Assembly: GCA_030425505.1 (NCBI GenBank)
Contig: JAUIAB010000013.1
Location: forward strand, 1-64,000
Reading direction: 5' to 3'
DNA length: 64,000 nt
DNA from: Bacteroidia bacterium
GTDB lineage: Bacteria; Bacteroidota; Bacteroidia; Cytophagales; Flammeovirgaceae
In this document: positions 1-47,501 of the stretch, piece by piece
How positions within the stretch are numbered: the first letter of the stretch is position 1
Layout of the letters: every line of letters begins with the position of its first letter
The notes under the pieces: model-generated
Seen by the model: the letters and a program-made list of their open reading frames with translations, nothing else
Told to the model about the DNA's origin: nothing
The model's database searches: none
Program-made: the position numbers and the translations under genes

Positions 1-3000
1 TAAACTTCCAAATATTCTGCTTCTGGCAATCCTACTGGTGGATTTACATCAGCATATACTTCAGTAAAGATGAGTTCGCCTTCCGACGGCTTCTCTCCTA
101 TTCCGAAGGTGAATGTATTGTTCTCTCCTATGGCATTGCCTGCACAATCTGTAACGTTTTCTACGGTTAATGCATACAACTCTGTTCTGAGTAAGTCTGA
201 TGATAGGGTAAGAAGTACGGTTTTGTTGTCTTCGATTGCAAATCCAATAACTTCTACATTGTTGGTAAATACATAGTTTTCTGTTTGAGAAATACTTCCT
301 TCATCCATCTTTTCGCTGAATGTAACTTGTAGCTGATTTTCAGCTACTATTTCTACTGTGGATAAGGATGGTGATTCTTCATCTGGGTTATCAGCAAATA
401 CAGAATTTTGCTCTCCTGGTGTTCCTCCTCGCTCATCTATCGATGCTCGCCAATTATCTTCTTCCCCACACAAGTTATTCGGATCTATCATCTCTAAAGA
501 CCAACCGCCATTGTCTTTTTCTGAGTCTCGATACCATGCAGAAGTATAACTAACTCTATGCAGTAGCTCTCCCGATTGGTTTATTATAGAAATTGTTTCT
601 GATCCATCGTTTAATGTTGGAAAGCTAGGAACTCCAGCTATATTAATACCTTCAAATGAATCTAAATTTCCAGTAGCTACAAGTAGCATGTATGTATTTC
701 CAGAAATAAACCCAGGTCTTAGCTCTGTTTGGCTTGTAGCATCAGCCAGAATTAGTCCTTCTAAAGAAATTAATTTATCAGTAGTATTGAATATTTCTAC
801 ATACTCTACCTCTGGTAGACCTAATGGAGGGTTAATGTCTGCCATTATTTCTGTTATCACTAGTTCTCCAGGCTGAGCAATAGATCCAGTTCCAAATGAA
901 GTTTCATTTTCTTCTATAGTATTTCCAGGGCAGTCTGTTACATTATTTACCTGAATCGAGTATAACGTACCGCTGATTAGGTTTTGGTTTAATGTTATAA
1001 TTACATTTTTCTCATCTTCTATTTGTACCTCTGTAACACTCAAACCATCCGAAATTTGATAGTTATCCCTGTTATTAAGGGATTCCAGATCCATTTTTTC
1101 AGAAAATACTAATCGCAACTGATCTTCTCCCACAATTTCTACTTCTGTCAGTGTAGGTTTTTCTTCGTCTGCATTCACTCCATTGATTGAGTTTACTACT
1201 CCTGGCGTTCCACCTGCTTCATTTTCCGAAGCACTCCAATTGTTTTCTTCGGCACAGAAGTTATTAGGGTCTATGATTTCTAAAGACCAGCCTCCATTAT
1301 CTTTCTCAGAGTCGTTGTACCATGAAGTGGCATAATCTACCTCGTGAATAATTGTTTCATCCAAGCCTATTAGACTGATTTTTTCTCCACTATCATTAAG
1401 TGTTGGGAAGTTGGGTACTCCAATTACATTATCAATATCAAAGAGATCTACTTTTGTAGTTCCTGTTAAAACCAAATACGCATTTGGTTTTAAATATCCT
1501 CCCTCTAGCCCACCTGTTCTAGAACCATCCGTAATTCCTACATCTTTTAAGGATATTAGTTTATTTGTCCTGTTGTATATCTCTACGTATTCTGCTTCTG
1601 GCAACGAAACTGTTGGGTTGAAGTCTGCATATATTTCTGAAATGATAAGCTCATTAGCTACTGGCATTTCTCCTATTCCAAACTCAAAAGAAGCATTTTC
1701 ATCTATATTATTTCCAAAACAATCAGTCAAATCGCTAAACGAAATTTGATAAAGCTGAGAAGCATTTAATGGGGCTGTGAACTTTAGCTGAATAGTATAA
1801 TTGTTTTCAATAGTTATTTCATCAATTTGAAGATTGTTGGAGAGATCATAGTTATTAGCTTGCCCCAATGTTTCTTGCGTGATTTTTTCATCAAATTGGA
1901 TTTTTAAATTCTGATTATCAATTAATTGTATGTAAGATACCTTTGGTGATTGGTTGTCCTCTATTTGACCATTTACAGAGTTTTCAAGCCCTGGAGTTCC
2001 ATTGTCTTCACTTTCAGAAGCTTTCCAGTTTTGATCTTCCGCACAGAAATTATTTGGGTCAATAATTTCTAAAGACCAGCCTCCTTCTTCTTTTTCAGCA
2101 TCTCTATACCATTCTGGGCTATAATCTATTGAGTTAATAACTATTTCTTCTTCTTCATCTTCTCTGATTAAGGATATTTGCTCTCCTGTATTATTAAGCG
2201 AAGGGAAGCTAGTTACTCCAAACACATTTACATCTTCAAAAAGATCTATTTTTGACGTTGAAGTAAGCACTGCATACTCCCCTCCTCGCAAAGATCCACT
2301 TTGTACTGTACCAAAACCTGTCCCATCTGCCACTTTTAAGCCTTCTAGTGATAAAAACTTATTTGTTCTATTATAAACTTCAATGTATTCTGCATCAGGC
2401 AGATTCGATTCATCTGCAGGATCAAAATATATCTCTGTGATGAGTAAATCGTTTACTTCAGGAAATTCTCCCACTCCAAATGGATAGGCATTATTGCTCA
2501 CTGCATTATTAGAGCAATCCCTTAAGTTTCTTGCTGTAATGGTATAGCTTGTTCCCCTCTGGATAGCGGCATTTAGAGTCAATGTAAATGATTTATTTGA
2601 AATTACTTCTATACTTTGAACTCGTATTCCTCCACTTATGCTATAATTTGCTACAGCCTCCAAATCTCCAGTTACTTTTTCTGAAAAGGCTATAGATAGT
2701 TCTGTAAGAGAGTTGATATCCACAGATGCTATTTCTGGGTTTGTGTTATCTGCAGCATTGTTAAATACGGAATTACGAACACCTGGAGTGCCACCATTCT
2801 CATTTTCAGAAGCTCTCCAATTGTCTTCTTCACCACAAAGGTTGTTAGGATTCACTATCTCTAATGTCCAACCTCCATCATTTTTATCTGCGTTTTGATA
2901 CCAATCATCCAAGTAAGTAAGGGAATGAATTACTTCCTCATCAGGAGCTACCAATGCTATTTCCTTACCAGTATTAGGAAGTGTCCTCCAAGGGGTTATG

Positions 3001-6000
3001 CCTAGTACATTGTTAACCTCAAAGAGGTTAGCATTATCATTAGGGCATAGTACCACATACGAACCTGCATTAAGTTCGTAATCAGGTAATGTTGTTTGGC
3101 TGGCTCCTACTCGTATGTACATCCCTCGTATATTGTAGTTTTTATTAGAGTTATTGTATAGTTCGATGTACTCTGTATTAGGTAAATTCACTGCAGGATC
3201 AGGATCGATCATTAGCTCTGTTATGACTATTTCTCCTTCTCTTGGTGGTAGTGGTTGGCTGAAGTTTTCTTCTTCTTCCTCTATTGCATTTCCATCCAAA
3301 TCGAGTACATTTCTAACAAAAACTGTGTATTCTATACCAAAACCAAAATCATCTTCCGCCTCAAGGGTAAGAACTCTATCTGTGTTGTCTAAGGTTGCAT
3401 CTGCTAATGCTGTATCATTTCCTTCGTCATCTCTAATTTCATAGTTCAGCAAGTTCTCAGCAGACTCTTCCTGTACTTCTTCGTTGAATGTGATCGCTAT
3501 TTCATTGTTGTCAGTTAGTTCTACTCTAGAGATTCTTGCAGGTTGTCTGTCTATTAAAAAACTCTGAGTGGAAGCAGGTATTATTTTCAAATCTACCTTT
3601 GTAAGCGGTCCCACTCTAAGTTGGTGGTTTACATTTGATTCAATATTATCTTGGAATATCAGATAAACTATATTTGGATTTTCCTGATCTAAACGAGCTG
3701 CATTTAGTTGATTACCTCCATCATCCAACTGATATCTATCATTATCCTCTGCAATTTCTTCGATAAGGTTTTCTTCAAAATGAACGGCCAATGATGCATC
3801 TCCAACCACCACTATTCTTTCCACTTGAGGATCATATTCTACTGTAACCTCCTGATTTTCTAAGGAAACGCCTCCAGCAAGTGGACTTATCTCATCAATC
3901 ATAAGTGTAAGCTGCTGGTTTATTGCAAATGCATTGGCAAAGGTCAATGTGATTTTAGCCGGTTGGTTATTGTTATTTTCAAAATTACCTTGCTCAAAGG
4001 CTATTTCGGTGGGGTGTATATTATTATTTAGTGTGTAATTGTTTAATTGGCGAGAAGGATCCGCTTCATCTAGTGCAATTAATTCTGAGAATAGTAGCTC
4101 GATTTGAGTATTGGATATCACATTTGCAGTACTCAACTTAGGCTTATTTTTTTCAAATTGAAAGGTAACAGCAGGGACTATAGCATTTCCCCTCAAATCT
4201 TCTACATTGGCTACAGAAACTAATATATTATCTCCTATTTGTTGATCAGAAAAAGAGGTTGCAAAAGTTAGCGTGACCACTCTAGGATAGGAATTAAGTA
4301 GTTGAGCTGTTATAGGTGTTACTATTTCAGCATTCGGATTGTCAGCATCTCTAAAGGCATAATTGGCAGGAATTTGAGATGAACCTGCATCAAGCTCCTC
4401 AGAAAAAGTTATTTGTATAGCATCTGGGGCTGTTATTTTACTTTCTATGATAGATGGTGCTCTAGTATCATAGATAAATTCTCTTGTTGTTGTACCTGCC
4501 TGATTTTGAGATAGATCTATTATATCAGAAATGCTTATTTCATATAGTCGTTCTTGCTCAAAGTCCTGATCAAAGGTAAGATATACGATATGGATTTGAT
4601 TAGGATCTCTTACAGCTGTAGAAGGATTACCTATGCCATCTACTTCGTAGTTTGTAGTTGTTTGCGCACTTGTTTGTTCTACATCTTCTCTAAATGTTAC
4701 CTTCAATACATTAGAATTAATGGCTACAACTCCTCCATTAGCATCGCTTTCTACTGTTGGATTAGTATTATCAAATTCAAAAGGTATGTTATCGGCATTT
4801 TCTACCAGATTTCCATTACTCCCTCTTACTCCAAGTATTGTGAGGAATAATCTATTTCCTTCTGGAAGTTGGTCATCGAAGAAAAGTTGTAAGATAGTTG
4901 GATTATCATCAGCAATTAATGCTTGTGTAACTGGATTCTCTAAATCATTCCCTCCTTCATCTTCCACTGAATAATTTGCAGGGTTTCCAGGCTCAATTGT
5001 ATCTGGATCAATAGGCTTATCAAACTCTACATTTATCCCAAAAGGAGAAGTGGCATAAGCTTGGATCACTCTTGCGGCAAAGTTGTTATTATTTATTTCA
5101 AATTCTTCCGATTGAAGCTGATTTGTTGCATTCCCAGCTATATCTTCCACTCTGTTAACTGTCAGGATGTAATTTTCACTTTCAAGAATTTCAGAAAAAT
5201 TTAATATAATCTGATCATTGCCTGCACCTGTTCTGGTTGCTAGTGCTGGTGAACCTACCCCATTGTTCAAGGTATAGTTACGAGGGTTCGATGAGGTTAC
5301 TGGGTCTAGTTCTTCTGAAAAGTTAATGGTTAGTTGCTTGTTATTATTAACTACAATTGGATTGTTAATAATCGGGGCCGTATTATCCCAAACAAAGTTT
5401 ATTTCTGCTGGAGAGTTTATTGGTATCGCATTTTGTTGCACAGAAATATCTGCAATATTTATGACTCTCAATGTATTTTCTATTCCTTCTTGAAATGGAT
5501 TAGCGAAGGTTAGAACTACCTGATTGTATGTAGTTTGATCTCTCTGAGCTACTTGCGGATGTATGTTTGCATTGTCAGGATCTAGAATATAGTTGTTTTC
5601 TTCATTTGCTGATCCTAAAGAAATAGGTTCATTAAAACTTAATCGCACTTCTGTATCATTCAACACTTCTATTTGATCTAGCTCTGGCGGTAGACGATCT
5701 TCTATTTCATCGTATATAGCTATATTGTCAAAAGAAAATTTATCTCCTCTGGCATTGGACGTAAATCTACATTGTGCTCCAAAGTGAGAAAAAGTAGTAT
5801 GTGTATCATCTATTCCTTCTCCTAAAAATAAGCCATTCACAAAAACACTCCAATTTCCATTAGTTCTTCTATTAGCTCTCACATTGTATGTATATGGTTC
5901 TCCTCCAACAAAATTTATATTTTCACCTCCATTTAAGTCAATCTGAGTTGTAGAGCTTCCTGACTGTCTTCTTAATTGAATTTCAGTAGGATCATCCGTA

Positions 6001-6422
6001 TCACCTATTTGCAGAAAGTATCCATTTAAATCCTCCACTAAATCAGAGCTATTAGAGGCAAGGTATACTCTAACCTGGTTGTCACCACTAAAGTCACCTT
6101 CAGGAAAGTTAATTTGTACTTCAAACTCCCATTCCACATTAATTTCAGCGAGGCTTATTTCTTGGTTTAACTGTGTTGAAAAATATACTCTCCTGCCGCC
6201 AGCACCTCCATCAAAATCGCTTTGTAACTGATTTGCATTGATGATAAAATCTCCATTAATCGCACCGTTATTCGTTCCTACTTCCCAAATTGGATTGTTT
6301 TGATCAGGATTTAGTAAAACTCTATCAAAGTTATCCTGGAATATATCCTGAGCCTTTAGAGTTGCTGTTTGAATAAGGAAAAAAGAGATAATCAGATTGA
6401 TTAGAATATAGTTTGTTCTCAT
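1..6422 (-). CDS. Giant secreted protein with LamG-like, Ig-like and lamin-tail-domain repeats (partial)
   Basis: The frame is open from the ATG at 6422 down to base 1, so at least 2,140 residues are present and the C-terminus lies outside the window. Residues 1-22 form a signal peptide ending near ATLKAQ. Residues ~25-235 look like a concanavalin/LamG-type domain. Residues ~240-1,050 hold about nine ~90-residue Ig-like repeats of the SbsA/Big_5 type, each with a strand like LTINFSEELD. From ~1,060 a ~264-residue unit of lamin-tail domain plus one Ig-like repeat recurs: four are complete and a fifth begins near base 90. Each lamin-tail domain opens with ITEIxxDxNP and closes with a WSLEIIDPNNxC-like motif. 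Such proteins are usually exported by T9SS and attached to the surface; the sorting domain would lie beyond the window. An adhesive or matrix role is inference. Confidence 0.85.
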   Translation of the reverse strand, partial: MRTNYILINLIISFFLIQTATLKAQDIFQDNFDRVLLNPDQNNPIWEVGTNNGAINGDFIINANQLQSDFDGGAGGRRVYFSTQLNQEISLAEINVEWEFEVQINFPEGDFSGDNQVRVYLASNSSDLVEDLNGYFLQIGDTDDPTEIQLRRQSGSSTTQIDLNGGENINFVGGEPYTYNVRANRRTNGNWSVFVNGLFLGEGIDDTHTTFSHFGAQCRFTSNARGDKFSFDNIAIYDEIEDRLPPELDQIEVLNDTEVRLSFNEPISLGSANEENNYILDPDNANIHPQVAQRDQTTYNQVVLTFANPFQEGIENTLRVINIADISVQQNAIPINSPAEINFVWDNTAPIINNPIVVNNNKQLTINFSEELDPVTSSNPRNYTLNNGVGSPALATRTGAGNDQIILNFSEILESENYILTVNRVEDIAGNATNQLQSEEFEINNNNFAARVIQAYATSPFGINVEFDKPIDPDTIEPGNPANYSVEDEGGNDLENPVTQALIADDNPTILQLFFDDQLPEGNRLFLTILGVRGSNGNLVENADNIPFEFDNTNPTVESDANGGVVAINSNVLKVTFREDVEQTSAQTTTNYEVDGIGNPSTAVRDPNQIHIVYLTFDQDFEQERLYEISISDIIDLSQNQAGTTTREFIYDTRAPSIIESKITAPDAIQITFSEELDAGSSQIPANYAFRDADNPNAEIVTPITAQLLNSYPRVVTLTFATSFSDQQIGDNILVSVANVEDLRGNAIVPAVTFQFEKNKPKLSTANVISNTQIELLFSELIALDEADPSRQLNNYTLNNNIHPTEIAFEQGNFENNNNQPAKITLTFANAFAINQQLTLMIDEISPLAGGVSLENQEVTVEYDPQVERIVVVGDASLAVHFEENLIEEIAEDNDRYQLDDGGNQLNAARLDQENPNIVYLIFQDNIESNVNHQLRVGPLTKVDLKIIPASTQSFLIDRQPARISRVELTDNNEIAITFNEEVQEESAENLLNYEIRDDEGNDTALADATLDNTDRVLTLEAEDDFGFGIEYTVFVRNVLDLDGNAIEEEEENFSQPLPPREGEIVITELMIDPDPAVNLPNTEYIELYNNSNKNYNIRGMYIRVGASQTTLPDYELNAGSYVVLCPNDNANLFEVNNVLGITPWRTLPNTGKEIALVAPDEEVIHSLTYLDDWYQNADKNDGGWTLEIVNPNNLCGEEDNWRASENENGGTPGVRNSVFNNAADNTNPEIASVDINSLTELSIAFSEKVTGDLEAVANYSISGGIRVQSIEVISNKSFTLTLNAAIQRGTSYTITARNLRDCSNNAVSNNAYPFGVGEFPEVNDLLITEIYFDPADESNLPDAEYIEVYNRTNKFLSLEGLKVADGTGFGTVQSGSLRGGEYAVLTSTSKIDLFEDVNVFGVTSFPSLNNTGEQISLIREDEEEEIVINSIDYSPEWYRDAEKEEGGWSLEIIDPNNFCAEDQNWKASESEDNGTPGLENSVNGQIEDNQSPKVSYIQLIDNQNLKIQFDEKITQETLGQANNYDLSNNLQIDEITIENNYTIQLKFTAPLNASQLYQISFSDLTDCFGNNIDENASFEFGIGEMPVANELIISEIYADFNPTVSLPEAEYVEIYNRTNKLISLKDVGITDGSRTGGLEGGYLKPNAYLVLTGTTKVDLFDIDNVIGVPNFPTLNDSGEKISLIGLDETIIHEVDYATSWYNDSEKDNGGWSLEIIDPNNFCAEENNWSASENEAGGTPGVVNSINGVNADEEKPTLTEVEIVGEDQLRLVFSEKMDLESLNNRDNYQISDGLSVTEVQIEDEKNVIITLNQNLISGTLYSIQVNNVTDCPGNTIEENETSFGTGSIAQPGELVITEIMADINPPLGLPEVEYVEIFNTTDKLISLEGLILADATSQTELRPGFISGNTYMLLVATGNLDSFEGINIAGVPSFPTLNDGSETISIINQSGELLHRVSYTSAWYRDSEKDNGGWSLEMIDPNNLCGEEDNWRASIDERGGTPGEQNSVFADNPDEESPSLSTVEIVAENQLQVTFSEKMDEGSISQTENYVFTNNVEVIGFAIEDNKTVLLTLSSDLLRTELYALTVENVTDCAGNAIGENNTFTFGIGEKPSEGELIFTEVYADVNPPVGLPEAEYLEV

Positions 6423-6585: not shown

Positions 6586-9500
6586 TTATCTAGTAAGTAT
6601 CATTCTTTTGGTATCTACTACATCTCCATCTACAATTAAGCTGTACAGATACATTCCTGCCTGCAGCTCTCCTGCTTTTAGCTCAACAGATTTTTGTTTG
6701 TCTGTTATTTCAAACTCATTAACCTGCTTCCCTTGCAAGTCGTATATATAAAGCATCGCCTTTTGCGAGCCCATTGGCAAACTAAAGTTTATTTCAGTAG
6801 ACTCTGTAAAAGGATTAGGCTTATTTTGAAATAGTTGTGCCTGTGATGTTTCTAAACCAATTTGATCATCTCTTACTTCTGATTTCAAATTAGCCATGCC
6901 AGCTTTTAAGTCTTCAATTTCCTTTTCCAGCATGGAAAGCCTCTCGTCACTTTCAGCTTTTACTTCTTTGAGTGCCTCTGTTAGAACTGGTATTAAGCCA
7001 ATATAATTTACACTCAAATAACCCTCTTTATTTTCATGTACTAATTCAGGAAATACATTTTGTATTTCTTGTGCTAAAAAGCCATATTGCTCAGTATTAC
7101 TAAACTTTTTCCCAGCAAACTTATCCGTATTAAACTTATAGTTAACTCCTCTAATATTTTTTAAAGCTTCAAATGCATTTGATACATTTCTAATATCTTT
7201 CTTATACCTAGCATCAGAAACATTTAGATATTCAACAGCTTGGACATTACCCGCTACATCTAAAGCTTGTTCAGGATCAGCAGTTCCAACTCCTACATTA
7301 CCATTTTTTAGAACAGTCAATGCATTTGAAAATTGATCAGGGTCACGCCGCTGTCCATTACCATTCCCAATAACAAACAAAGGATCCGTATCAATCCACT
7401 CTTCAGAATTAAATGCATTATTTCTAACATTATACCTTCCCATAACAACTGAACTATAACTTCTAGCTATTGTACTTTCCCCAAAGGTAACTGCATAGTT
7501 ACCAATAGCTTCTGAGCCACTTCCATAAGAAACAGAATAGTCTCCTTCTGCAGTAGTAGAAGAACCATATGCTGTAGAAGAAGTACCAGATGCTGTAGTT
7601 TGAGATCCAAAAGCAGCAGAATAAGTTCCTGTAGCTACAGAGCCATATCCTACACCAAAACTGAAGAACCCTACATTATCGCCGTTATCTAGTTCACCTC
7701 CAGCAAGAGGTTGGGTTACCCAATTACCATTACTATTTCCAGCTCTAAAAGCTGATCTATTGGAATACCATCGCATATAACCTGGATTAACTATTCCTCC
7801 TACCTGGTCATCCCCTACAAAGTATACATCTCCTCCTTCTACTTGAAGTTTAGCTTCAGGTGGATCTACCGTTCCAATTCCTATATTACCTGCTTCACTT
7901 AATAAAACATCATTACCATCCACTCTCCACCCAGCATTTCCTCCCCCTCCACCAACTAATGCACTCAAATCGACAGATCGGGGTACTCCAGCTTCAATAA
8001 TTTCTAAGTTATTTCCATTAAGTTGAAATGCTGAAATTGTTTCATTGTTTGGGTCTGCATCTGCATCTCCTTCCCCACCAGCCAAAGCACTCAAATCTAC
8101 AGTTTTTGCTACTCCTGCCTCCTTTATTACTAATTCATTTGCTGCATTCAACTCTATGCTTGTAATTACTTCATTATCCGTCCTTGCATCATCATCTACA
8201 AACGCACTTAAATCAACTGATTGAGTAACACCAGCTTCAGTAATTTCTAAATTTTTTCCACTGATTCGAAGATCAGTAATTGTTTCATTATTTGGATCTG
8301 CATCTGCATCTGCTCCACCACCTTGTAAATTACTCAAATCTACACTAGTTACCGTTTGATTATCTCCATTGCCTTCAGTTATTAATAATTCATTTGCAGC
8401 ATTCAATTCAAGATTTGTAATTGCTAATGGACTTAAATCTATGTTATTTATTGTAGCATCTGCTCCTTCGGTTATTGTTAACTGATTGTTTGCAAGAGTC
8501 ATTTTTGAAATTGCTTCATTTTCTGGATCTGTATCCCCAGCAAAACGGTTTAAGCTAACCGACCTAGTTACACCGCCTTCAATTATCCTTAAGCTGTTTG
8601 CAGCATTGAGTGATATAGAACTAATTCTAGCAGTATTTCTCAATGCAGTTAAATCAACATTATTTCCATCACTAATACTTAAGGTGGCCCCTGCTAAATT
8701 TAGAGTTTGGTTTCCTCCTGCATCTCCCCCACTGGTAAGAGACGTCCATTCGCTACCATCGTAGCCTTCAAAATCATTGCCACTCCACCTAATTGTACCT
8801 GGGTTAGCTACGTCTGTTCCACCAATTCTTAAGCCACCATTCACATGTAGTGTTGCAGTAGGGCTAGTAGTATTAATACCAACTCTTCTATTGTCAAACT
8901 CACCATATATAAGTGTATAAGCTGAGTCACTTGCTATGTGAAGTCTGTGAGAACCAGTTTCTCTATAACCTGCACCATAACCTAAAAAAACATTTCTTTC
9001 TCCAGTTACATGATTATTACCAGCATAAGACCCCAGAAAAGTATTGTAACTCCCTTGTTCATGTCTCCAACCCGAATTTCTACCAATAAAGGTGTTTCTA
9101 GTACCATTTCTATTTTGGCTACCACTGTAATAACCTATAAAAGTGTTAGATGAAGCAAAGCTAGAACTTCCATTATTATTCCAACCAGCTCGCACCCCAA
9201 TAAACGTATTTTTACTACCTTGAGAGTTCTCTCTTCCTGCATCCCTTCCAAAAAAAGCATTGTCAGAACCAGAAGATATACTAAGACCAGAGTTATGACC
9301 TGTGAATGTGTTATAATTACCAGTAATAGGAATATTTTCTACTCCGCGACCTGAGCTTCTTCCAATAAAGGTATTTCCTAAAGCCGACACATTCCATATT
9401 CCAGCTGAAAATCCAAGAAATGTATTATTGGTAGCACCCAACGCTCTACTCCCAGCAAAGTTCCCAACGAATGTATTACTTGACCCTCCATTAGGTACAT

Positions 9501-9654
9501 TATTCACATCATAACCAGCATTTTCCCCAGCAACATAGTTTCCAGACTGTCCAAAAGAAACATTTGAAATAACAAAAAAGAAAAAAATACTTAATACTGC
9601 TGTAAGTTTTTTTGGTTTAAAATAAAATTGAGTTTTTAGTAGTTGATGCATCAT
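6586..9654 (-). CDS. Secreted beta-roll stalk protein with S74 intramolecular chaperone and T9SS type A sorting domain
   Basis: The protein has 1,022 residues. A signal peptide occupies residues ~1-35 (hydrophobic VLSIFFFFVISNVSFG). Residues ~58-235 are tandem NTFxGxxAG-type repeats. Residues ~300-590 hold about seven repeats of the type ELxITEAGVxxSVDLSAL separated by acidic ADADPNNETI linkers. Residues ~672-745 resemble the YadA-type head (AxGxxSxAxGxxTxA). An S74 chaperone/autoprotease domain begins at Ser813 in SDARYKKDI; in the family this Ser and the nearby Lys perform self-cleavage. A short coiled coil (~895-925) precedes a T9SS sorting domain from ~943 (QNKPNPF) to the end. This suggests a trimeric surface fibre (inference). 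A perfect terminator follows the gene. Confidence 0.85.
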   Translation of the reverse strand: MMHQLLKTQFYFKPKKLTAVLSIFFFFVISNVSFGQSGNYVAGENAGYDVNNVPNGGSSNTFVGNFAGSRALGATNNTFLGFSAGIWNVSALGNTFIGRSSGRGVENIPITGNYNTFTGHNSGLSISSGSDNAFFGRDAGRENSQGSKNTFIGVRAGWNNNGSSSFASSNTFIGYYSGSQNRNGTRNTFIGRNSGWRHEQGSYNTFLGSYAGNNHVTGERNVFLGYGAGYRETGSHRLHIASDSAYTLIYGEFDNRRVGINTTSPTATLHVNGGLRIGGTDVANPGTIRWSGNDFEGYDGSEWTSLTSGGDAGGNQTLNLAGATLSISDGNNVDLTALRNTARISSISLNAANSLRIIEGGVTRSVSLNRFAGDTDPENEAISKMTLANNQLTITEGADATINNIDLSPLAITNLELNAANELLITEGNGDNQTVTSVDLSNLQGGGADADADPNNETITDLRISGKNLEITEAGVTQSVDLSAFVDDDARTDNEVITSIELNAANELVIKEAGVAKTVDLSALAGGEGDADADPNNETISAFQLNGNNLEIIEAGVPRSVDLSALVGGGGGNAGWRVDGNDVLLSEAGNIGIGTVDPPEAKLQVEGGDVYFVGDDQVGGIVNPGYMRWYSNRSAFRAGNSNGNWVTQPLAGGELDNGDNVGFFSFGVGYGSVATGTYSAAFGSQTTASGTSSTAYGSSTTAEGDYSVSYGSGSEAIGNYAVTFGESTIARSYSSVVMGRYNVRNNAFNSEEWIDTDPLFVIGNGNGQRRDPDQFSNALTVLKNGNVGVGTADPEQALDVAGNVQAVEYLNVSDARYKKDIRNVSNAFEALKNIRGVNYKFNTDKFAGKKFSNTEQYGFLAQEIQNVFPELVHENKEGYLSVNYIGLIPVLTEALKEVKAESDERLSMLEKEIEDLKAGMANLKSEVRDDQIGLETSQAQLFQNKPNPFTESTEINFSLPMGSQKAMLYIYDLQGKQVNEFEITDKQKSVELKAGELQAGMYLYSLIVDGDVVDTKRMILTR

Positions 9655-18133: not shown

Positions 18134-21100
18134 ATGAAAATGAAACGTAATTTATTTTACTTAATCACTACGTTCAATCTTCTGTTTCTATGTTCCAATT
18201 TGTTTGGGCAAGAAAAAGTTGTACTTGAAGATTTTTTTAATAGGAGTGACAATAGTTGGACAGAAAATTCCAGTAAGGCAAGTCTTAGTGGGGGGAAATT
18301 ATATCTCACTAATACCTCTCAATCATCTGATGGTAAGGTTACAAAACCTTTGAGTAACGAAATTAGCAGTATGAATGATTTCAAGCTGTCTTGCGATGTT
18401 AAGCTTTTAGGAACTGGTGTGCAATCTGGTAGAGCAGGAATTGAGCTAGGAAATAAGAAGATGTCTGACAGAATTTTCTTCTACATTACAAATGATGAAA
18501 AATTCCATACTCAGTTTGTAAAAAACAGACAAGTCGCAGAAAAATCTGATTGGATAAGTGAACCAGTGATAAAGCTAGGGAAAACTAATCGTTTAGAAAT
18601 AATTAAAAATGCTAGTAAGGCTTATTTTTTCATTAACGGCAAATGGGTACATTCATTTAAAGTGGATGAAGATATAACTTTTGACGTTGTATCTTTAGGC
18701 ATATCGGCTAATCGGAAAGCTGCATTTGACAATGTAATTATCAAGTACTCTCCCGCTAAATCTATAAATCTTGTTAAAGATTCTTCTCAGGGCTATAAGC
18801 TTACAAACCTTGGTAAAGGGGTTAATTCTAAATATACTGAAATGATACCTTTTGTTTCTGCTGATGGGAAAAACCTTTATTTTACTAGACTTGATCACCC
18901 TAATAATTTAGGTGATGCAAATAATGCTGGCGATATTTGGAAGTCTTCAAGAGATAAATATGATAGTTGGGGTGAAGCTGAAAATTTAAACCAGCCAATT
19001 AATAATACCAATAATGGTAATACAAACTTCATTGTTGCTATTACTGCTGATGGAAATAAGATGTATTTGAGAGGGCTTTATAATGATAGTTTTAGCCCTA
19101 TTTATAAGACTACTCAATTAGATTCTGGTTGGTCCATGCCAGAGCCTATGCCAGTAGATGAATTTGACTTTAATGGCAAACTAGTCAATGTATGTATGTC
19201 TCCTGATGAGAAAAAAATTATTTTTTCGATTAAAAGAGATGATTCTAGAGGAGAAAGAGACTTATTCGTTAGCTTTCTTAAAGCTGACAGAAAATCTTGG
19301 ACCAAACCAAAGCATATGGGAGATGTGATTAATACTGTTGGCGATGATAGTTCTCCATTTATTGCTGCTGATGGTAAGACATTGTATTATTCCACTGATG
19401 GTTTTCCTGGGTTTGGAGGCAAAGATATTTTTGTAACTAAAAGGTTAGATGAAAGTTGGACGATGTGGTCTGAGCCACAAAATATAGGAGCAGATATTAA
19501 CTCTGCCAGAGATGAAATAGATTATAAGATCCCTGCCTCAAGTGAATTTGCATATATGGCATCTTCTTCAAATCTGGATGGTGCTATGGGTAAGTCTGAT
19601 ATTTACAAAATTAAAGTTACTGATGGCGCTAAGCCCGAACCTGTTGTTTTAGTTTATGGTAAAGTTCTTAATAGCAAAACAAAAGAACCGATTGCTGCAA
19701 ATATTTCATGTAATAGCTTGAAAGATAATAAGCAAGTTGCAGCTGCAATTTCTAATCCTTCTACTGGTGCTTATCAAATTGTTCTTCCATATGGAAAAAT
19801 TTACAGCTTAATTGCTGAAAAGTCTGGTTTTTTCTCTGTTAGTGAAAATTTAGATGTTATTGATGTTTCTACTTATACCGAAATAGAAAAGGATCTATAT
19901 TTAACTCCTATTGAAGCTGGTCAATCTATTCGATTGAATAACGTTTTTTTTGAATTCAATAAATCTTATTTAAAACCTGCTTCTTACCCTGAGCTAGACC
20001 GTCTAGTTGACCTATTGAATAAAAATCAGGATTTAACTATTGAGATTAGTGGTCATACAGATAGTATTGGTAGTGCAACTTACAATAAGGCATTATCTGA
20101 AAGAAGAGCTAAATCTGTTAAAGATTACTTATTTGAAAAGGGCATGACAGAAGAAAGAGTCAATAGCCATGGATATGGTCTGGAATATCCTATAGCACAA
20201 AATGATACTGAGATTGGAAGGTCAATAAATAGAAGAGTTGAGTTTACCATTTTGGGTAATGGTGTATCTGGTTACCCTGATAGCTATACTGGTCTAGACT
20301 ATAATTTGACAAATGATAGCACTGAAGCTTCAAAAATACAGGGTGTAAATATCTTGATAAGTAGATATATTGGCGAAAAATCGTATACATTTTCGCAAAG
20401 AAAGAAAGGAGAAAGTGAAGTAGATTATAAGATTAGAGTAAACGATGCTACTAACAAAATTCAAAAGGAAAAGATAAGAGCTGAAGCTATTGACTATTAT
20501 GCAAATCAGCTTTTATCTCTGGAAGATGCGGCCATAAGCTTTGACGCAGACAAGAATGAGACAATTATTGATATTGATGGTGTAAAACCATTTAGAATAG
20601 CCATGTCGAGGAAGAAATACTATAGTTTAAAAGCAACATGGCCTAAATCAATAGTGGGAAAACCTGTTTATGACTTTGATAATGATGATGAAATCTTTGT
20701 GATGGCATTTCTAAAGCTTAATGTGCTAAGTGAAACTTTTAAAGAAGATAATATTTTAGGTCTTGTTGATGAACATTTAGAAGAAAATAGTGTAAGAAGA
20801 GCTCACAGTTTATATGAGCTTTTGCCAGGTTCTTACTTTAGTCAAAATGACTCTTCTTTAAACCATCAAATTTATCAAAGCATAGAAAATAGTATATCTC
20901 AGCAAGTGTATGATGCTTTAACAAAATTTGCAGATCAGTACATTGCACAAAAAGATTATTCTTCAGCAAAGAAAATATACGAAGCTGCTCGTCAATATAA
21001 TGATAGTAATTCTGGTGAGTTACTCTCAATGCTCACAACTATTGAACAGGAAATAGATAAAAGAGAACACCCAGGCAAATATCTTTCTAATGCTGTAAAA

Positions 21101-22033
21101 AATTCTAATACTGTTGAAGTTAGAACATTGCTTGCCTTAGGTGCGAACCCAGATTTAGAGTCAAGTGATGGAACCTCTATTATTTTTGATGCTATTGATC
21201 TAGAAAAGCCAAACATACTTAAATTACTTATTGAGAACGATGCCAACTTAGATAAAATTCATAGTGATGGGGACACTCCACTAATGCATGCAATTAAGAA
21301 GGATAAAAAGGAAATGGCATCTATTCTTATTGAAAAAGGAGCAAGTTTAAGCAGAAGAAATAATAACAATGAAAATGCAATGCACTATGCTGTTAAGTAC
21401 AAGGCTAACGATTTATTAAGTCTCGTTTTAAGTAAGGAAACTATGAATGGAATTAATAGCGAGGGCGAAACCCCTATTCATTATGCTGTTACTTACGATA
21501 ATTACGATGCTGCTTATGAGCTTATTAACAATGATGCTTTAGTAAGTTATAAAAATAAAAATGGTTTAACTCCATTATTACTAGCAGTAAAATTAAAAAA
21601 GCTAGACTTTATTCGTTTGCTACTAAGAAATGATGGATTAACAAATGATAAGTTTGAAGGAAATATTTCTCCATTGGAGTATGCCATAAATAATAACTTA
21701 TTTAATGTTGCTGAAGTACTAATAAACTATGGTGGAGGCATTCAAAAGTTTGATCTAGGTAGTGGTGAAAACAATTTGTTGATACAGAGTATTGTATCTA
21801 AAAACAATGATTATGCTAAGCTTTTAGTTTATGAAGGAGCTGATCTATCAATAACTGCAAGTTCTAAGAAATGGACTCCATTACATTATGCAGCAAGTAT
21901 TGGCAATGAAGAAGTTGCAAGTGCTATAGTAGCAAAAGACCCAGAATTAACTAAAGTTAAAGATTTATACAACGATAAACCTAAAAATATCGCTAAAGAT
22001 AAAGGATATAAAGAGTTAGCTAAGATGTTATAA
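18134..22033 (+). CDS. OmpA-family outer membrane protein with LamG-like, PD40 and C-terminal ankyrin repeats
   Basis: The protein has 1,299 residues. A signal peptide (1-25) is followed by a LamG-like domain (~28-210), PD40/WD40-like beta-propeller repeats (~232-490, strands such as PFIAADGKTLYYSTDG), a carboxypeptidase-regulatory-like fold (~503-590) and an OmpA peptidoglycan-binding domain (~600-705: VFFEFNKSYLKP, ISGHTDSIGS, NRRVEF). The first part is the common Bacteroidota PD40-OmpA arrangement. Unusually, it continues with a ~270-residue helical region and about ten ankyrin repeats (~985-1299; TPLMHAIKK, TPIHYAVT, TPLHYAAS). The last codons lie in a terminator hairpin. OmpA binding places it in the periplasm. 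Confidence 0.88.
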   Translation: MKMKRNLFYLITTFNLLFLCSNLFGQEKVVLEDFFNRSDNSWTENSSKASLSGGKLYLTNTSQSSDGKVTKPLSNEISSMNDFKLSCDVKLLGTGVQSGRAGIELGNKKMSDRIFFYITNDEKFHTQFVKNRQVAEKSDWISEPVIKLGKTNRLEIIKNASKAYFFINGKWVHSFKVDEDITFDVVSLGISANRKAAFDNVIIKYSPAKSINLVKDSSQGYKLTNLGKGVNSKYTEMIPFVSADGKNLYFTRLDHPNNLGDANNAGDIWKSSRDKYDSWGEAENLNQPINNTNNGNTNFIVAITADGNKMYLRGLYNDSFSPIYKTTQLDSGWSMPEPMPVDEFDFNGKLVNVCMSPDEKKIIFSIKRDDSRGERDLFVSFLKADRKSWTKPKHMGDVINTVGDDSSPFIAADGKTLYYSTDGFPGFGGKDIFVTKRLDESWTMWSEPQNIGADINSARDEIDYKIPASSEFAYMASSSNLDGAMGKSDIYKIKVTDGAKPEPVVLVYGKVLNSKTKEPIAANISCNSLKDNKQVAAAISNPSTGAYQIVLPYGKIYSLIAEKSGFFSVSENLDVIDVSTYTEIEKDLYLTPIEAGQSIRLNNVFFEFNKSYLKPASYPELDRLVDLLNKNQDLTIEISGHTDSIGSATYNKALSERRAKSVKDYLFEKGMTEERVNSHGYGLEYPIAQNDTEIGRSINRRVEFTILGNGVSGYPDSYTGLDYNLTNDSTEASKIQGVNILISRYIGEKSYTFSQRKKGESEVDYKIRVNDATNKIQKEKIRAEAIDYYANQLLSLEDAAISFDADKNETIIDIDGVKPFRIAMSRKKYYSLKATWPKSIVGKPVYDFDNDDEIFVMAFLKLNVLSETFKEDNILGLVDEHLEENSVRRAHSLYELLPGSYFSQNDSSLNHQIYQSIENSISQQVYDALTKFADQYIAQKDYSSAKKIYEAARQYNDSNSGELLSMLTTIEQEIDKREHPGKYLSNAVKNSNTVEVRTLLALGANPDLESSDGTSIIFDAIDLEKPNILKLLIENDANLDKIHSDGDTPLMHAIKKDKKEMASILIEKGASLSRRNNNNENAMHYAVKYKANDLLSLVLSKETMNGINSEGETPIHYAVTYDNYDAAYELINNDALVSYKNKNGLTPLLLAVKLKKLDFIRLLLRNDGLTNDKFEGNISPLEYAINNNLFNVAEVLINYGGGIQKFDLGSGENNLLIQSIVSKNNDYAKLLVYEGADLSITASSKKWTPLHYAASIGNEEVASAIVAKDPELTKVKDLYNDKPKNIAKDKGYKELAKML

Positions 22034-41758: not shown

Positions 41759-42964
41759 ATGAACGCTAGATTTTTTAAAATAACTGTTATAGTATTTTTA
41801 ACAACTGCTTGCAATATTTCAAATGCGCAAGATTGGGATCTTGAATGGGACATTAGCAAAGGTGACTGGAATTCCCAAGGTAGTGATTATACTTTAATTT
41901 TCTCAGGGCACTCATCTGATTCTGAGAAGCATATTATCGCTACAGGTGGAGGAACATTTAGAGCATTAGAAGTAGCTGACGGATCTGTACCTTTCACAAG
42001 TATGGATGATTTCGAGATAGAAGCGTATATAGATGTTAATGGTATTTATGGAAGAACTGCTACTGGTATAGAGGCTGGTTTTTCTATAGGTGATGGAAGT
42101 AAAAGAGTAAGAATTGGTATAGCAAATGATGCTAGTTCTGTAGTTGAAGCTTTTACTTCTACGACAATTGGAATCCTACCTGGAGGTTTTGATCTCAGCA
42201 TTCCTCATTACTGGGGTGCTACAAGAGAAGGCGACTCTTTAAGCATCTGGCTTGACGATACTAAAATTGGCACTTTCGATTGGAGTGATGCACCAAGCCA
42301 CTCGTCAACAAGAGTACGATTTGGACAGCTATATGCTACTTCAGCCAATGCAGGCAACAGCATTCATATTTATAGTGTTAACATGAGTCTCGGAGTTCAA
42401 TCTGATCCTCCTTCAACAAGACATGCCTCTGTTTTACCTGTAGAATTCATAAAATTTGATATTAAAGAAGAAAATAATGCTGCTACTTTAAATTGGTCTA
42501 CTGCTCAGGAAGTTAATAATATGGGCTTTGAAGTTTATAAAAGTAATGACGCTGTAAAATGGGATAAAATTGGTTTTGTTAATGGTCATGAAAATTCGAA
42601 TTCGATTAAGAAATATTCTTTTGCAGACAGTAATTCAAAAAGTGGTGTTTCCTACTATAAGTTGAAGCAAATTGATTTTGACGGGCAATATGAGTTCTCA
42701 AAGGTAATTTCAATCAATAAAATACCCTCTATCGCTAATTCTCTAGAAATATACCCAAACCCTACTACTGACTATGTTAAAATAAATTTAGGAGGCGGCA
42801 ATTCTTTTACAGCATATTTGTACGATAGTTTTGGAAGATTATATCTTAAAAAAGATATTGTAAGTGATAATATGTTAGACCTCTCTAATATCAAAAAAGG
42901 AAATTACATTCTTAAAGTAGCAACGGGAAATAAGATATTAAGTAAAAAAATAGTTGTTTTGTAA
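41759..42964 (+). CDS. T9SS cargo protein with LamG-like N-terminal domain
   Basis: The 401-residue protein has a signal peptide (1-~24, cleavage near NISNAQ). A beta-rich LamG/concanavalin-like domain (~25-215) begins DWDLEWDISKGDW. An FN3-like region (~225-320, TLNWSTAQEVNNMGFEVYKS, a stretch common in T9SS cargo) is followed by a type A sorting domain from ~325 (IYPNPTTDYVKINL) to KKIVVL. It is exported and surface-attached by T9SS (known for the domain); the ligand is unknown. Confidence 0.87.
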   Translation: MNARFFKITVIVFLTTACNISNAQDWDLEWDISKGDWNSQGSDYTLIFSGHSSDSEKHIIATGGGTFRALEVADGSVPFTSMDDFEIEAYIDVNGIYGRTATGIEAGFSIGDGSKRVRIGIANDASSVVEAFTSTTIGILPGGFDLSIPHYWGATREGDSLSIWLDDTKIGTFDWSDAPSHSSTRVRFGQLYATSANAGNSIHIYSVNMSLGVQSDPPSTRHASVLPVEFIKFDIKEENNAATLNWSTAQEVNNMGFEVYKSNDAVKWDKIGFVNGHENSNSIKKYSFADSNSKSGVSYYKLKQIDFDGQYEFSKVISINKIPSIANSLEIYPNPTTDYVKINLGGGNSFTAYLYDSFGRLYLKKDIVSDNMLDLSNIKKGNYILKVATGNKILSKKIVVL

Positions 42965-42998: not shown

Positions 42999-45900
42999 TC
43001 ACTTTTTAACCATCTTCTTTGTAAACTTAGAATTACCATCAGTAACAGATACTAAATACATTCCTGGAGCTATATCTTTGTTCAAGTTAATTTCTGCTAC
43101 TTTATTATCGTTTTTTATAGCATTACTATAAATTAAAGATCCAGATAAATTTCTAATTTCTAATTTCAAGTCAAAGGAATTTGTAAACTCAGAAAGATCA
43201 ACTATAACCTTGCTTCCATTAAACGGGTTTGGATAAATATTAAATGTATTTTTTTCTAGCGAAGTATCTTCTCTAAAAATTATATCTAAGCTTGGAGGAA
43301 GCCGAAATTCTAGAGTTGCTTCTACTCTTTCAGTTTGCATTGTAGAGCCATGAAAAGGTTTGATTTGTAAATAGTATGATATTTCCGTTCCAACAGGATT
43401 ATTAAGTAGCTCCTGAAATGAAATTTCATCCATTATATCCCCATCTAACACCAGAAAATTGTTCCCTACAAATTGAATGCTATTATTGCCTTCTTGCCAA
43501 AGATCAGCTTCTGCAATTATATTTATACCAATGCCTCTAACATGCCTAACCAGCTTTATATTTTCAATACCATAGGGATCTATTTGCCAAGAAATGTTTA
43601 CATTATCTTCATCAGCTATTGCTGTAAAGTTTTGAACTGTTCTGCTAAACTCAGACAGTTGACGTAAACAAGCATTACTTAGAGCTTCTCCCCATCTATT
43701 TCTGGCTTCTAGTTTGTATTGATAATAAACTCCATTGTAAGGTAAGTTATCGTAATAAGTGAAAGCATTTCCATCTAGTACTGCAACTTCCTCAAAACCA
43801 GAGTCATGAAAATAGTTTGCAGAACCTCCACCAAAAGTAAAACGTCTGTATAAAACCAGCTCATCTGCTCTACTATATCTCGGGTTGTCCACATAGTCAG
43901 GCTCCCAATTTAGAATAGCACCTTGATCTGTTATTGCTAAAATTCTTAAGCCCACCGGTGTTTTGATGCCTCTACCTATAAGTATTTCGTTGGACTCGCT
44001 ATAAAGGGATTCCCTCCTACCCGCCTGCAATATTTTTAACCTATACTTGTAAAGACCATCACTTATACGATGTTCATCAGTATAGCTAGTAATACCATAG
44101 TCGATTATATCTAATTGAGTATAGTCTAACCCATTTTTTGAGCGTTCTATCAATATTTGTTTAGGCCTGTTTATTTCATTAGCTATAATTAACTCCCAAG
44201 TTAATTGTATTTTTTTACTACCAATGCCCTCAGCTATTACTTCTCTTGGTGCACCATATCTCCAGTCATTCTCTATCTCTCCATGAACTCTAAACCAAAG
44301 TTTTCTATTCGTATGTTGAGTCCTATCAATATTTAAACTACTATCTACCCTTCTTTCAATAGCATTACCATTTTCAGACGCTCCTCTCCATAGCCATGGG
44401 TATACATTTTCCAAAGGCATAAATACTGGCATTACACAAAGCCAATACTTGCCTTCTGGTAATCTTACTGGATCTCTAAAGTTAAATTTAAAACTATATC
44501 TATTCGTTACTTCATCTGATAGTATTTGTAACCTATCATCATTTAAGCTATACTCTCTACTTAATATAATTTCTCTACTTTCTCCTTCCCCCCTTTTTAA
44601 AATAAGTTTTACTGCTAGTGGATCATGGTATTGCTCAAAAGGCTGCCTTAATTTTCCTTCTACATGGAATCCATCTACTCGCCAAGTACTACCTTCAGCA
44701 ATATCAAAATCATCCCACATTTCTATTCTGGTAGTATTCTCATTTACAACTGGAGATTTGGTAAAACTGGCAAAATTACCATCTTCCGCCAAGCTCTGAT
44801 TAAAAACTATCCTTTCTGCAGCACTTTCTACTTCTACTCTTAACTTTCCCTTAGAGCGTATTCTTCCATTACTAGATTCTATGGTTAAAAAGGTAATACC
44901 ACTAGATTCAGCCTCAATCCTTAGTGTCTCTTCTTCAATAGAGTGAGAGATTACTCCTTCATCAGATGTTTCAGTAATTATATATTCTAAATCCTCATTT
45001 TCTTCAATTTCAAAGTCAAATCCAGTAAGATCAATTACCTTCTCTTCTTCTTCTAATGTCATACTAACTGTTCCCAGATCTTTTATAAAAGGTTCATCAG
45101 AAAAAGTAAATAGACCTTTTCCATACGTGGCCACTGCAACCATTCCATCACTAGCTCTACACTGCACCATAGAAACACGACTAATACCAATACTCTCTAG
45201 CGCCTCTCTTTCCCATTTTATATTACTTGTTTTAACTTTTGCTCCTACAATTAAAGGAATGCTTTTAGTAGAAAGTAACCCCATACTTGTTCCAAGAAAC
45301 ACTTTGTAATAATCCGGTCTATTATCAAGACGTCGGACTGCCACAGAAACTACTGTGGGCGCATTTCTTCCAGATAAATTACCATCAACATTCATCCAAT
45401 TATTTCCTGCATCTTTTGAATAAAATATACTTGGGGTATTAAAACCATAAAAAACGACAAATACTCTTCTCCCGTCTAGTGGATCCGTTGCTATACAATT
45501 AATCTTATTATCATTATTAATAAAATCCTCTCTTTCTTCCATCTGTTCTTCGTCCATATTCTCCATCTGAAGGAAACTATCTCTTGTAATTTCCGTAATT
45601 CGGGGGTTTGGACTATCAGCATTATCTACTCTATATAAGTGCCCCAGCTTTGTTGCTACATATAATATGTTAGCTGGCTGATTACTAACTGTCAATGTAG
45701 AAAGCTGATCTTCTTCTTCCAATGGGAAATTTATTCTAAGATCTGATCTAAAGTTTTCATTAAAATTCCTATACCGTTTAATAAACTCACTTTCATGAAT
45801 TACATAGGCAAGTCCATCTTGATTAGGGTCTAATACGAAAAAAGGTCTTCCTGACCAATTAGTTTCTGACCATATTTCATCTCTTTGCCGTCGAAATGTC

Positions 45901-47501
45901 CTATTCCCATAATCGAGGCTAATCCTTGGTATGTTTCCGTATTGGTTTGTAGTATATAAAAATCTGCCATCATTAGAGAATTGACAATACATTCCATCAT
46001 TCCTTGTTGGCATTACATACTCATCATCATACTCTTTCTCAAATGAAAGTCTGGATCCCTGATCTTGAAAGCCAGCAGCAATTGCAGTCCTATTACCTCT
46101 AGGAGGTATTGCAACACTATATGCCTGGGTAGTAACATAGTCCGTATTCAAATCTTCCCATGGAACATTTATTTCTCTTATAAAATTTACAGGAACTTGC
46201 ACCATGCCATTACTAGTTGCATACAAGCCTCCATCATTAGCTACTAGCATTTTATTACTATTAGAAGGGTAAAATAAGATCTTTTGTTGATCATTATGCA
46301 ATCCAACATTTCCTCCTCTAAATTTTATCACATTGTTTGGTGTTCTAAATCCATCCGTTGATCTTACTAACCCTACACTCCCAATAAAAACCATTTCTGG
46401 ATCTCCAGGGTGAACTGCTATGCACTGGTTGTAGTCAGTTTGTCCCAAATAATCTAAGTCAAGCCCTAAGTTTTCTGTTCTATCTTCCCAAGTAACTCTT
46501 GTTCTTTCATTTTCTAAATTTATAGTGCAATAAAATAACCTATATTCATGAGGGTAATCTTCTGTTTCCTGACCAGTTGAAAAAAAGTAAATACTTCTAC
46601 TTCTATTCTCATTCAAGCTTTGAGATACAGCAACCTCTATTCTTTCGCTCTCAGGCAAACGCAAATCATTAATTCTCAATGTAATATCTTCCCATACACC
46701 GTTAGTTCTTCTCAATAAAAACCTATCACTTCTCTCTTTGATTGGCACAGCAGCTACTATCTCTCCTGTGGTAAAAACATCTAAACCTACATTGCTACAA
46801 TTCCAACTATCAGCTAATGGAGGTATGGAGCTAATAAATACATCTCCTCCCCTTAAGCCAACTTCCACAACATTACTACCTCCAGCAACAATCAACTTTC
46901 CATCAATGGGAGCAACGACAATTTTATGAACTGATCTCATTTTTTGATCATCCCCTAAGTCTGAATACTTTAAAAATGGCTCCCAACTTAATCCAGAGTT
47001 AGACGATCGGTAAATCAGATTTTTTACTTTATGTTTTGATAGTTTATAACCCTTGGTACTAATACTATAATACCAAATGTGTTGAAAACCTTCTCTTGGA
47101 TCTTGCACTATGTTGCCTATACCATAGATGTTATTTTCTGGAGTGTTTATTCTTTCCCAACTCTGACCTCCATCTCTAGTTCTCCATAAATCACCTGTCT
47201 GACCTCCAGCTATAATGTGATTATCATCCCTTACGTCAATAGCAACAGCTTCCGTTCTTCCTCCTACATTGAATGGTCCTCTAGATGTAACTTTAGGCTT
47301 TGCCTCAAATAGTTCGTTGTTAGGAGCTAAATTATAATTTGCTACAGGGAGTTGAGACATAAAGTTTAGCTGCTCAGAGTGAAAGTTAGTATCGCTTGAT
47401 AAAGCGTAAAAAGCCTCACTTTTACCTTCCTGTTTCAACTCATTCTGAAATCCATCAATAATAAACATTGACATGATTAACAGCATGTTAATTATTTTCA
47501 T
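42999..47501 (-). CDS. Very large T9SS cargo protein with VPS10/BNR-like propeller and fibronectin repeats
   Basis: The 1,500-residue protein begins with a signal peptide. The first ~800 residues are a WD40/BNR/VPS10-type propeller with sialidase-like turns (RTRDGGQSWERI, RSSNSGLSWEPFL, SKDAGNNWMNV). Beta-sandwich and fibronectin-type repeats follow (~1,090-1,400: IQLTWELIIANE, ILNWEPDYVD, NVNISWQIDPY). A T9SS type A sorting domain ends it (NIYPNPFNGSKVIVDL to KKMVKK). Whether it is an enzyme or an adhesin is not visible. It converges with the 401-residue cargo gene. Confidence 0.85.
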   Translation of the reverse strand: MKIINMLLIMSMFIIDGFQNELKQEGKSEAFYALSSDTNFHSEQLNFMSQLPVANYNLAPNNELFEAKPKVTSRGPFNVGGRTEAVAIDVRDDNHIIAGGQTGDLWRTRDGGQSWERINTPENNIYGIGNIVQDPREGFQHIWYYSISTKGYKLSKHKVKNLIYRSSNSGLSWEPFLKYSDLGDDQKMRSVHKIVVAPIDGKLIVAGGSNVVEVGLRGGDVFISSIPPLADSWNCSNVGLDVFTTGEIVAAVPIKERSDRFLLRRTNGVWEDITLRINDLRLPESERIEVAVSQSLNENRSRSIYFFSTGQETEDYPHEYRLFYCTINLENERTRVTWEDRTENLGLDLDYLGQTDYNQCIAVHPGDPEMVFIGSVGLVRSTDGFRTPNNVIKFRGGNVGLHNDQQKILFYPSNSNKMLVANDGGLYATSNGMVQVPVNFIREINVPWEDLNTDYVTTQAYSVAIPPRGNRTAIAAGFQDQGSRLSFEKEYDDEYVMPTRNDGMYCQFSNDGRFLYTTNQYGNIPRISLDYGNRTFRRQRDEIWSETNWSGRPFFVLDPNQDGLAYVIHESEFIKRYRNFNENFRSDLRINFPLEEEDQLSTLTVSNQPANILYVATKLGHLYRVDNADSPNPRITEITRDSFLQMENMDEEQMEEREDFINNDNKINCIATDPLDGRRVFVVFYGFNTPSIFYSKDAGNNWMNVDGNLSGRNAPTVVSVAVRRLDNRPDYYKVFLGTSMGLLSTKSIPLIVGAKVKTSNIKWEREALESIGISRVSMVQCRASDGMVAVATYGKGLFTFSDEPFIKDLGTVSMTLEEEEKVIDLTGFDFEIEENEDLEYIITETSDEGVISHSIEEETLRIEAESSGITFLTIESSNGRIRSKGKLRVEVESAAERIVFNQSLAEDGNFASFTKSPVVNENTTRIEMWDDFDIAEGSTWRVDGFHVEGKLRQPFEQYHDPLAVKLILKRGEGESREIILSREYSLNDDRLQILSDEVTNRYSFKFNFRDPVRLPEGKYWLCVMPVFMPLENVYPWLWRGASENGNAIERRVDSSLNIDRTQHTNRKLWFRVHGEIENDWRYGAPREVIAEGIGSKKIQLTWELIIANEINRPKQILIERSKNGLDYTQLDIIDYGITSYTDEHRISDGLYKYRLKILQAGRRESLYSESNEILIGRGIKTPVGLRILAITDQGAILNWEPDYVDNPRYSRADELVLYRRFTFGGGSANYFHDSGFEEVAVLDGNAFTYYDNLPYNGVYYQYKLEARNRWGEALSNACLRQLSEFSRTVQNFTAIADEDNVNISWQIDPYGIENIKLVRHVRGIGINIIAEADLWQEGNNSIQFVGNNFLVLDGDIMDEISFQELLNNPVGTEISYYLQIKPFHGSTMQTERVEATLEFRLPPSLDIIFREDTSLEKNTFNIYPNPFNGSKVIVDLSEFTNSFDLKLEIRNLSGSLIYSNAIKNDNKVAEINLNKDIAPGMYLVSVTDGNSKFTKKMVKK

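Follow-up and report, generated by a model that had tools for sequence, protein, structure and literature searches.

A T9SS sorting signal behind a probably self-cleaving S74 chaperone domain in a predicted secreted fibre protein of Bacteroidota

In phages, S74 chaperones such as those of endosialidase NF of K1F and pb1 of T5 form the last domain of a virion protein made in the cytoplasm, with a beta-stalk ahead of them, a coiled coil behind, and a catalytic dyad of a Ser and, five residues on, a Lys. The pb1 protein of T5 remains uncut when mutated to S1264A, and the structure of this mutant has been solved. In eukaryotes, the ICA domain of MYRF cuts the bond P586/S587, and cleavage is lost in both S587A and K592A, positions that correspond to S911 and K916 of the endosialidase; the S587A protein still gives a trimer structure (PMC8326128). 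Since the Ser-to-Ala forms of MYRF and T5 pb1 are uncut and yet yield trimer structures, the Ser is not needed for folding. The S74 domain of MYRF sits between the functional part, a transcription factor, and an ER transmembrane helix that acts as C-terminal localisation element; its cut parts the two. A cellular fibre is also known: the MAT protein Bd3182 of Bdellovibrio, a trimeric S74 fibre of ~1000 aa with a signal peptide, an SDxxxK motif and a C-terminal S74 domain, is cut, and the cut is abolished by S782A. Bd3182 involves neither the type IX secretion system (T9SS) nor the C-terminal domain (CTD) by which T9SS substrates are recognised. According to PMC10202324, those substrates fold in the periplasm and pass through SprA, and PorV then carries them to PorU, where the CTD is taken off and A-LPS may be added. 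The interior of SprA measures ~7 nm (PMC7463736).

The protein considered here is encoded in a window of 64,000 nucleotides (positions 1 to 64,000 of contig JAUIAB010000013.1, assembly GCA_030425505.1) from a member of the Bacteroidia, in an ORF with an ATG start whose product is a predicted secreted fibre protein (Table 1). The NTFxGxxAG-type repeats of its N-terminal part are also present in phage virion proteins and are common to two paralogs (L003 and L007). Further on, a BimA model covers residues 661-739, and the Pfam YadA_head match (688-714, E=7.8e-5) falls slightly under the cut-off. The protein thus shares with YadA-type trimeric autotransporters the head-like repeats and a long, adhesin-like, predicted trimeric stalk, but not their C-terminal beta-barrel translocator: no Pfam match to such an anchor was found in the 1022-aa protein, which ends in a T9SS CTD instead.

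Table 1. Features of the S74-CTD fibre gene, with positions in the window.
Feature	Position	Strand	Description	Basis
Whole gene	6586..9654	-	1022 aa; S74 + T9SS CTD	ORF, translation, Pfam, NCBIfam
Residues 1-36	9547..9654	-	probable Sec signal peptide; hydrophobic core, end ..SFGQ	by-eye sequence reading
Residues 37-240	8935..9546	-	ten NTFxGxxAG-type repeats, ~17 residues each	sequence; PHROGs
Residues 340-600	7855..8637	-	stalk repeats, type NEVITSIELNAANELVIKEAG..KTVDLSAL	read off translation
Residues 661-740	7435..7674	-	YadA-head-like repeats, trimeric beta-roll type	Pfam, BimA model
Residues 776-812	7219..7329	-	beta-stalk (VGVGTADPEQALDVAGN) abutting predicted scissile bond	alignment to MYRF stalk (7dc3)
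Residues 813-873	7036..7218	-	Peptidase_S74; predicted cut Val812/Ser813	Pfam; 7dc3 alignment; Foldseek
Ser813 codon	7216..7218	-	predicted nucleophile	alignment, conservation, tree
Lys818 codon	7201..7203	-	predicted general base (Ser+5)	alignment, conservation, tree
Residues 884-928	6871..7005	-	long S74 C-terminal helix	AlphaFold model; MYRF, T5 structures
Residues 929-945	6820..6870	-	low-confidence flexible linker, expected place of PorU cut	pLDDT ~50 at 926-935; PMC10202324
Residues 946-1022	6589..6819	-	T9SS type A CTD, beta-sandwich	Pfam, NCBIfam, AlphaFold, Foldseek

A first-pass annotation of this DNA had placed the start of an S74 domain at Ser813 and a complete T9SS sorting domain some 130 residues later, and both assignments are borne out by the profiles. 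Peptidase_S74 (PF13884) matches residues 813-873 over its full length (1-58/58; 60.4 bits against a cut-off of 22, E=2e-16), with Ser813 at its position 1, and the CTD begins 133 residues further on, above the curated cut-offs of both Por_Secre_tail (PF18962; 946-1016, 35.1 bits, cut-off 27, E=1.6e-8 for the sorting domain) and the NCBIfam model TIGR04183, 'T9SS type A' (31.4 bits, cut-off 23). PHROGs matches are to phage tail fibres, baseplate and virion proteins, and lie mostly over the S74 region. The arrangement resembles phage S74 chaperones in the related sequence, the dyad, the stalk ahead and the helix behind (884-928, a trimeric coiled coil in relatives), and differs from them in having an export signal behind the S74 domain of a predicted secreted protein; it differs from Bd3182 in the same CTD. 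It shares the CTD profile and the beta-sandwich fold with T9SS type A substrates such as mirolase and NucA, from which PorU removes the CTD and for which no self-cutting chaperone domain has been described ahead of it. About 70 type A CTDs are encoded in the same genome, as are SprA (2458 bits) and PorU (1177 bits), so that machinery able to act on the sorting signal is at hand.

Comparison with solved structures points to the same catalytic residues. A phmmer search of PDB sequences retrieved a subunit of a phage long tail fibre (6f45) and the ICA domain of MYRF (7dc3, crystallised as the S587A mutant). The alignment with MYRF opens ~30 residues upstream of the cut, within the beta-stalk; in it, Ser813 falls on residue 587, an Ala in that structure, and Lys818 pairs with K592. 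The Ser-Lys pair, whose absence from an alignment the annotation had named as grounds for abandoning its proposal, is therefore present. The upstream arginine proposed as an oxyanion aid in T5 and K1F has no obvious equivalent in the 1022-aa protein. An AlphaFold monomer of residues 776-1022 (47 sequences; mean pLDDT 87) consists of an S74 core with its helix (884-928) and a CTD folded as a beta-sandwich, the two being separated by a linker of low confidence (926-935). The top three Foldseek matches in the PDB are MYRF ICA chains (7dc3; TM-score 0.70-0.73 by target length), and later ones include T9SS CTDs, namely those of PorU, mirolase and T9SS-bound NucA; in the model, S74 and CTD are two known modules joined by a linker where PorU could also cut. 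MYRF is the nearest solved structure by both sequence and fold, and, judged by analogy of layout, it is the closest working analogue of this fibre, with an ER transmembrane helix and a transcription factor in the places taken here by the T9SS CTD and the fibre.

The combination had been called mechanistically odd in the first-pass annotation, a description that does not survive a wider survey. The genome encodes seven S74 genes, all of which (7/7) run from S74 through helix to CTD with an intact dyad, a regularity far beyond chance. S74 is present in 88/297 genomes of the phylum, and S74-CTD genes turn up in numerous families across the order and the class (alignment A1 of S74 and CTD); of the ~150 top matches listed at class level, nearly all extend through the CTD. 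A further 62 tailed proteins, that is, S74 proteins followed by a CTD, came from named genome contigs of Bacteroidales, Flavobacteriales, Chitinophagales, Cytophagales and others (alignment A2, closer sequences). The reading of this locus as a unique oddity was rejected, since the order is common to seven paralogs and ~196 tailed Bacteroidota proteins, and so widespread an architecture is a design and not an accident.

Some members of the family depart from this layout. In the S74-CTD paralog L007 (same genome, contig C20, ~90.7-92.5 kb), a frameshift separates the part with the NTFxG repeats from the part with S74 and CTD; the gene could be a pseudogene or be subject to phase variation, or the assembly could be at fault. 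In genome G043 (contig C1), L051 and L052 are tandem, near-identical S74 copies, of which one has a CTD and the other loses it and runs into a hydrophobic C-terminus. In L034, from contig C22 of genome G287, an S74 domain with an intact dyad is followed by a coiled coil and a C-terminal transmembrane helix; the domain order of this Bacteroidota protein is that of eukaryotic MYRF, with an anchor that differs from the CTD.

Conservation of the dyad was assessed on S74 cores found with a profile that excluded the dyad region, so that the dyad was read afterwards. It was intact in 130/134 tailed and 123/124 untailed proteins of the first sample (one mis-anchored untailed row, L124, was corrected) and, when loop insertions were allowed for, in 59/62 tailed proteins of the second; dyad losses in L298, L322, L287, L302 and L329 proved on inspection to be only apparent and due to such insertions. 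Ser and Lys are thus kept in 189 of ~196 tailed Bacteroidota proteins over the two samples, among domains with a mean pairwise identity of 33%, and Ser813 and Lys818 fall within the four most conserved positions. The Ser is encoded by both codon families (TCN 122, AGY 8). A tree was built from 133 tailed domains (92.2 substitutions per site), with the dyad columns and the unclear L159 (227-aa frame) left out. Parsimony required a minimum of 3 changes for Ser, 1 for Lys818 and 1 for Asp814, whereas the median column needed 47; for 118 untailed domains the counts were 1, 0 and 3, against a median of 36. Lys819 changed 64 and 44 times, respectively. The annotation had offered Lys818 or Lys819 as the catalytic Lys: the former, which lies on MYRF K592 at Ser+5, stands, and the freely varying Lys819 was rejected. 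A chance or degenerate dyad was likewise rejected, on the intactness counts and the few changes on the tree.

On sequence grounds, conserved cleavage is well supported. Because characterised S74 proteins still fold, but are not cut, when their Ser is changed to Ala, conservation of the dyad implies selection for cleavage and not for folding; because the dyad persists whether or not a sorting signal follows, cleavage, whatever its role, is compatible with T9SS export. This bears on the proposal that the domain acts only as a trimerisation chaperone, with the C-terminal extension or monomeric export blocking the cut and PorU anchoring the full chain. Such silence, one of the two options raised by the first-pass annotation, is consistent with several tailed proteins that have lost the dyad and yet keep the CTD (L172, A..K; L218, A..Q; L282/L338 and L316, G or none), and the altered dyad in six of ~196 tailed proteins suggests that an uncut form is tolerated. 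We nonetheless consider a generally silent domain improbable: the dyad is equally constrained in tailed and untailed S74 domains, the mutants studied elsewhere fold without the hydroxyl, and MYRF cuts despite a C-terminal extension.

The five proteins without the dyad would be useful as natural uncut controls. The catalytic Ser position is occupied by Cys in two untailed S74-like proteins, L144 and L147 (SNYCDRNKKENF), and also in the tailed L264; an S74 variant with a Cys nucleophile may therefore exist.

An intact dyad might also persist if S74 had repeatedly been taken, recently, from phages or untailed genes, leaving too little time for decay. S74-related domains occur in 613 phage records, and on a joint tree tailed and untailed domains are interleaved, with tail presence switching at least 28 times (mean 86 with shuffled labels) and the dyad being lost 5 times, both counts being approximate since trees of such short domains are noisy. 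The tailed domains are, however, too divergent for this: their low mutual identity, the 92 substitutions per site and the median of 47 changes per column, compared with 3 at Ser and 1 at Lys, leave ample time for decay. Recent borrowing is strongly disfavoured, and we rejected phage-derived borrowing as the cause of the intact dyad; it is the least probable of the explanations considered.

Bacteroidota therefore probably export a fibre which then cuts itself free of its own export tag. A dyad-complete S74 does precede a real CTD, and the annotation reasoned soundly that an S74 cut would part fibre and sorting signal. We think it slightly more likely than not that the CTD directs export, that S74 trimerises the chains and that self-cleavage at 812/813 follows translocation as a step of release or maturation. 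The C-terminal 210 residues would then serve as a disposable export-and-assembly cassette. The chain would be exported by Sec and then by the T9SS with the CTD as signal, as its domains suggest; three S74 domains, held together by their C-terminal coiled coils, would guide folding of the trimeric stalk; and in the finished trimer Ser813, aided by Lys818, would cut Val812-Ser813, a reaction established for homologues, giving a fibre chain of ~80 kDa (37-812) and an S74-CTD piece of 24 kDa. As the CTD is needed for export, a productive cut would most likely follow translocation, outside the cell and once chains meet at the surface. Were PorU to act as well, the cassette would be split again, and if A-LPS were attached, the S74 stump and not the fibre would stay on the cell, making the S74 cut the release step.

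Some considerations weigh against this reading, among them the lack of an obvious counterpart of the upstream arginine and the six altered dyads. Release would be counterproductive for a cell-bound adhesin unless another anchor exists. Moreover, T9SS substrates are described as folding before export, in the periplasm, and an S74 domain there should form its trimer, and cut, prematurely. A trimer finished in the periplasm would cost the fibre its ticket, so that either assembly is delayed past export, as we favour, or the cassette stays clamped. The latter is a third option that the annotation missed in posing the choice between a cut after export, which we prefer, and silence: the cut S74-CTD trimer would hold the fibre non-covalently, the CTD would tow the complex through the T9SS, and the cap would fall later. 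The S74 domains of T5 and K1F grip the preceding domain with beta-hairpin tentacles, phage fibre chaperones can remain bound as caps, the T9SS moves folded proteins, and a slim S74-type trimeric beta-helix of ~4 nm could fit within the ~7 nm of SprA. The T5 chaperone must be released, however, and its grip is described as not overly strong; non-covalent towing across the outer membrane has no known precedent, and it is difficult to see how a long trimer would leave by a lateral gate. On these points we hold an early cut to be unlikely, if less so than silence.

A periplasmic cut could alternatively mark a branch point, whether as quality control or as an alternative fate yielding an untagged periplasmic fibre, with only uncut chains being exported. 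S74 is a folding checkpoint in phages, and nothing in the sequence fixes the compartment; long periplasmic trimeric fibres, though, have no known role, and the upstream repeats are adhesin- and fibre-like. We regard this as very unlikely. Cleavage after translocation remains our preferred reading for this protein, and its extension to Bacteroidota at large, in the form of T9SS-exported trimeric fibres whose conserved S74 cassette assembles the fibre at the surface and then severs it from the CTD independently of PorU, as an anchor-cutting switch like that of MYRF, is plausible but put at slightly less than an even chance.

On the current view, the T9SS exports proteins in a folded state and depends on PorU for signal removal. 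Conserved, assembly-triggered self-cleavage right ahead of the signal in a widespread class of substrates would, if true, be a second way of parting T9SS cargo from its signal, and would constrain when such cargo folds, with trimers forming after export or travelling as non-covalent complexes. It would also account for the display or shedding of long trimeric fibres by Bacteroidota in the absence of a YadA-type barrel, and would make the folding state during T9SS export testable by one point mutation. Each part is known; an S74 fibre that uses the T9SS, and not a phage tail or a bare C-terminus, is apparently an undescribed pairing, and no papers treating S74 or the endosialidase chaperone together with the T9SS or Bacteroidetes were found in open-licence full texts.

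Several other genes of the window are also of note. A giant protein that runs past the window edge (3-6422, - strand) combines Big_5 with repeated lamin-tail (LTD) domains, and a 1299-aa fusion (18134-22033, + strand) joins a PD40 beta-propeller, an OmpA domain and ankyrin repeats. Two convergent neighbours (41759-42964, + strand; 42999-47501, - strand) both end in a T9SS type A CTD, and the larger, on the - strand, has a sub-threshold Vps10/sortilin-like match.
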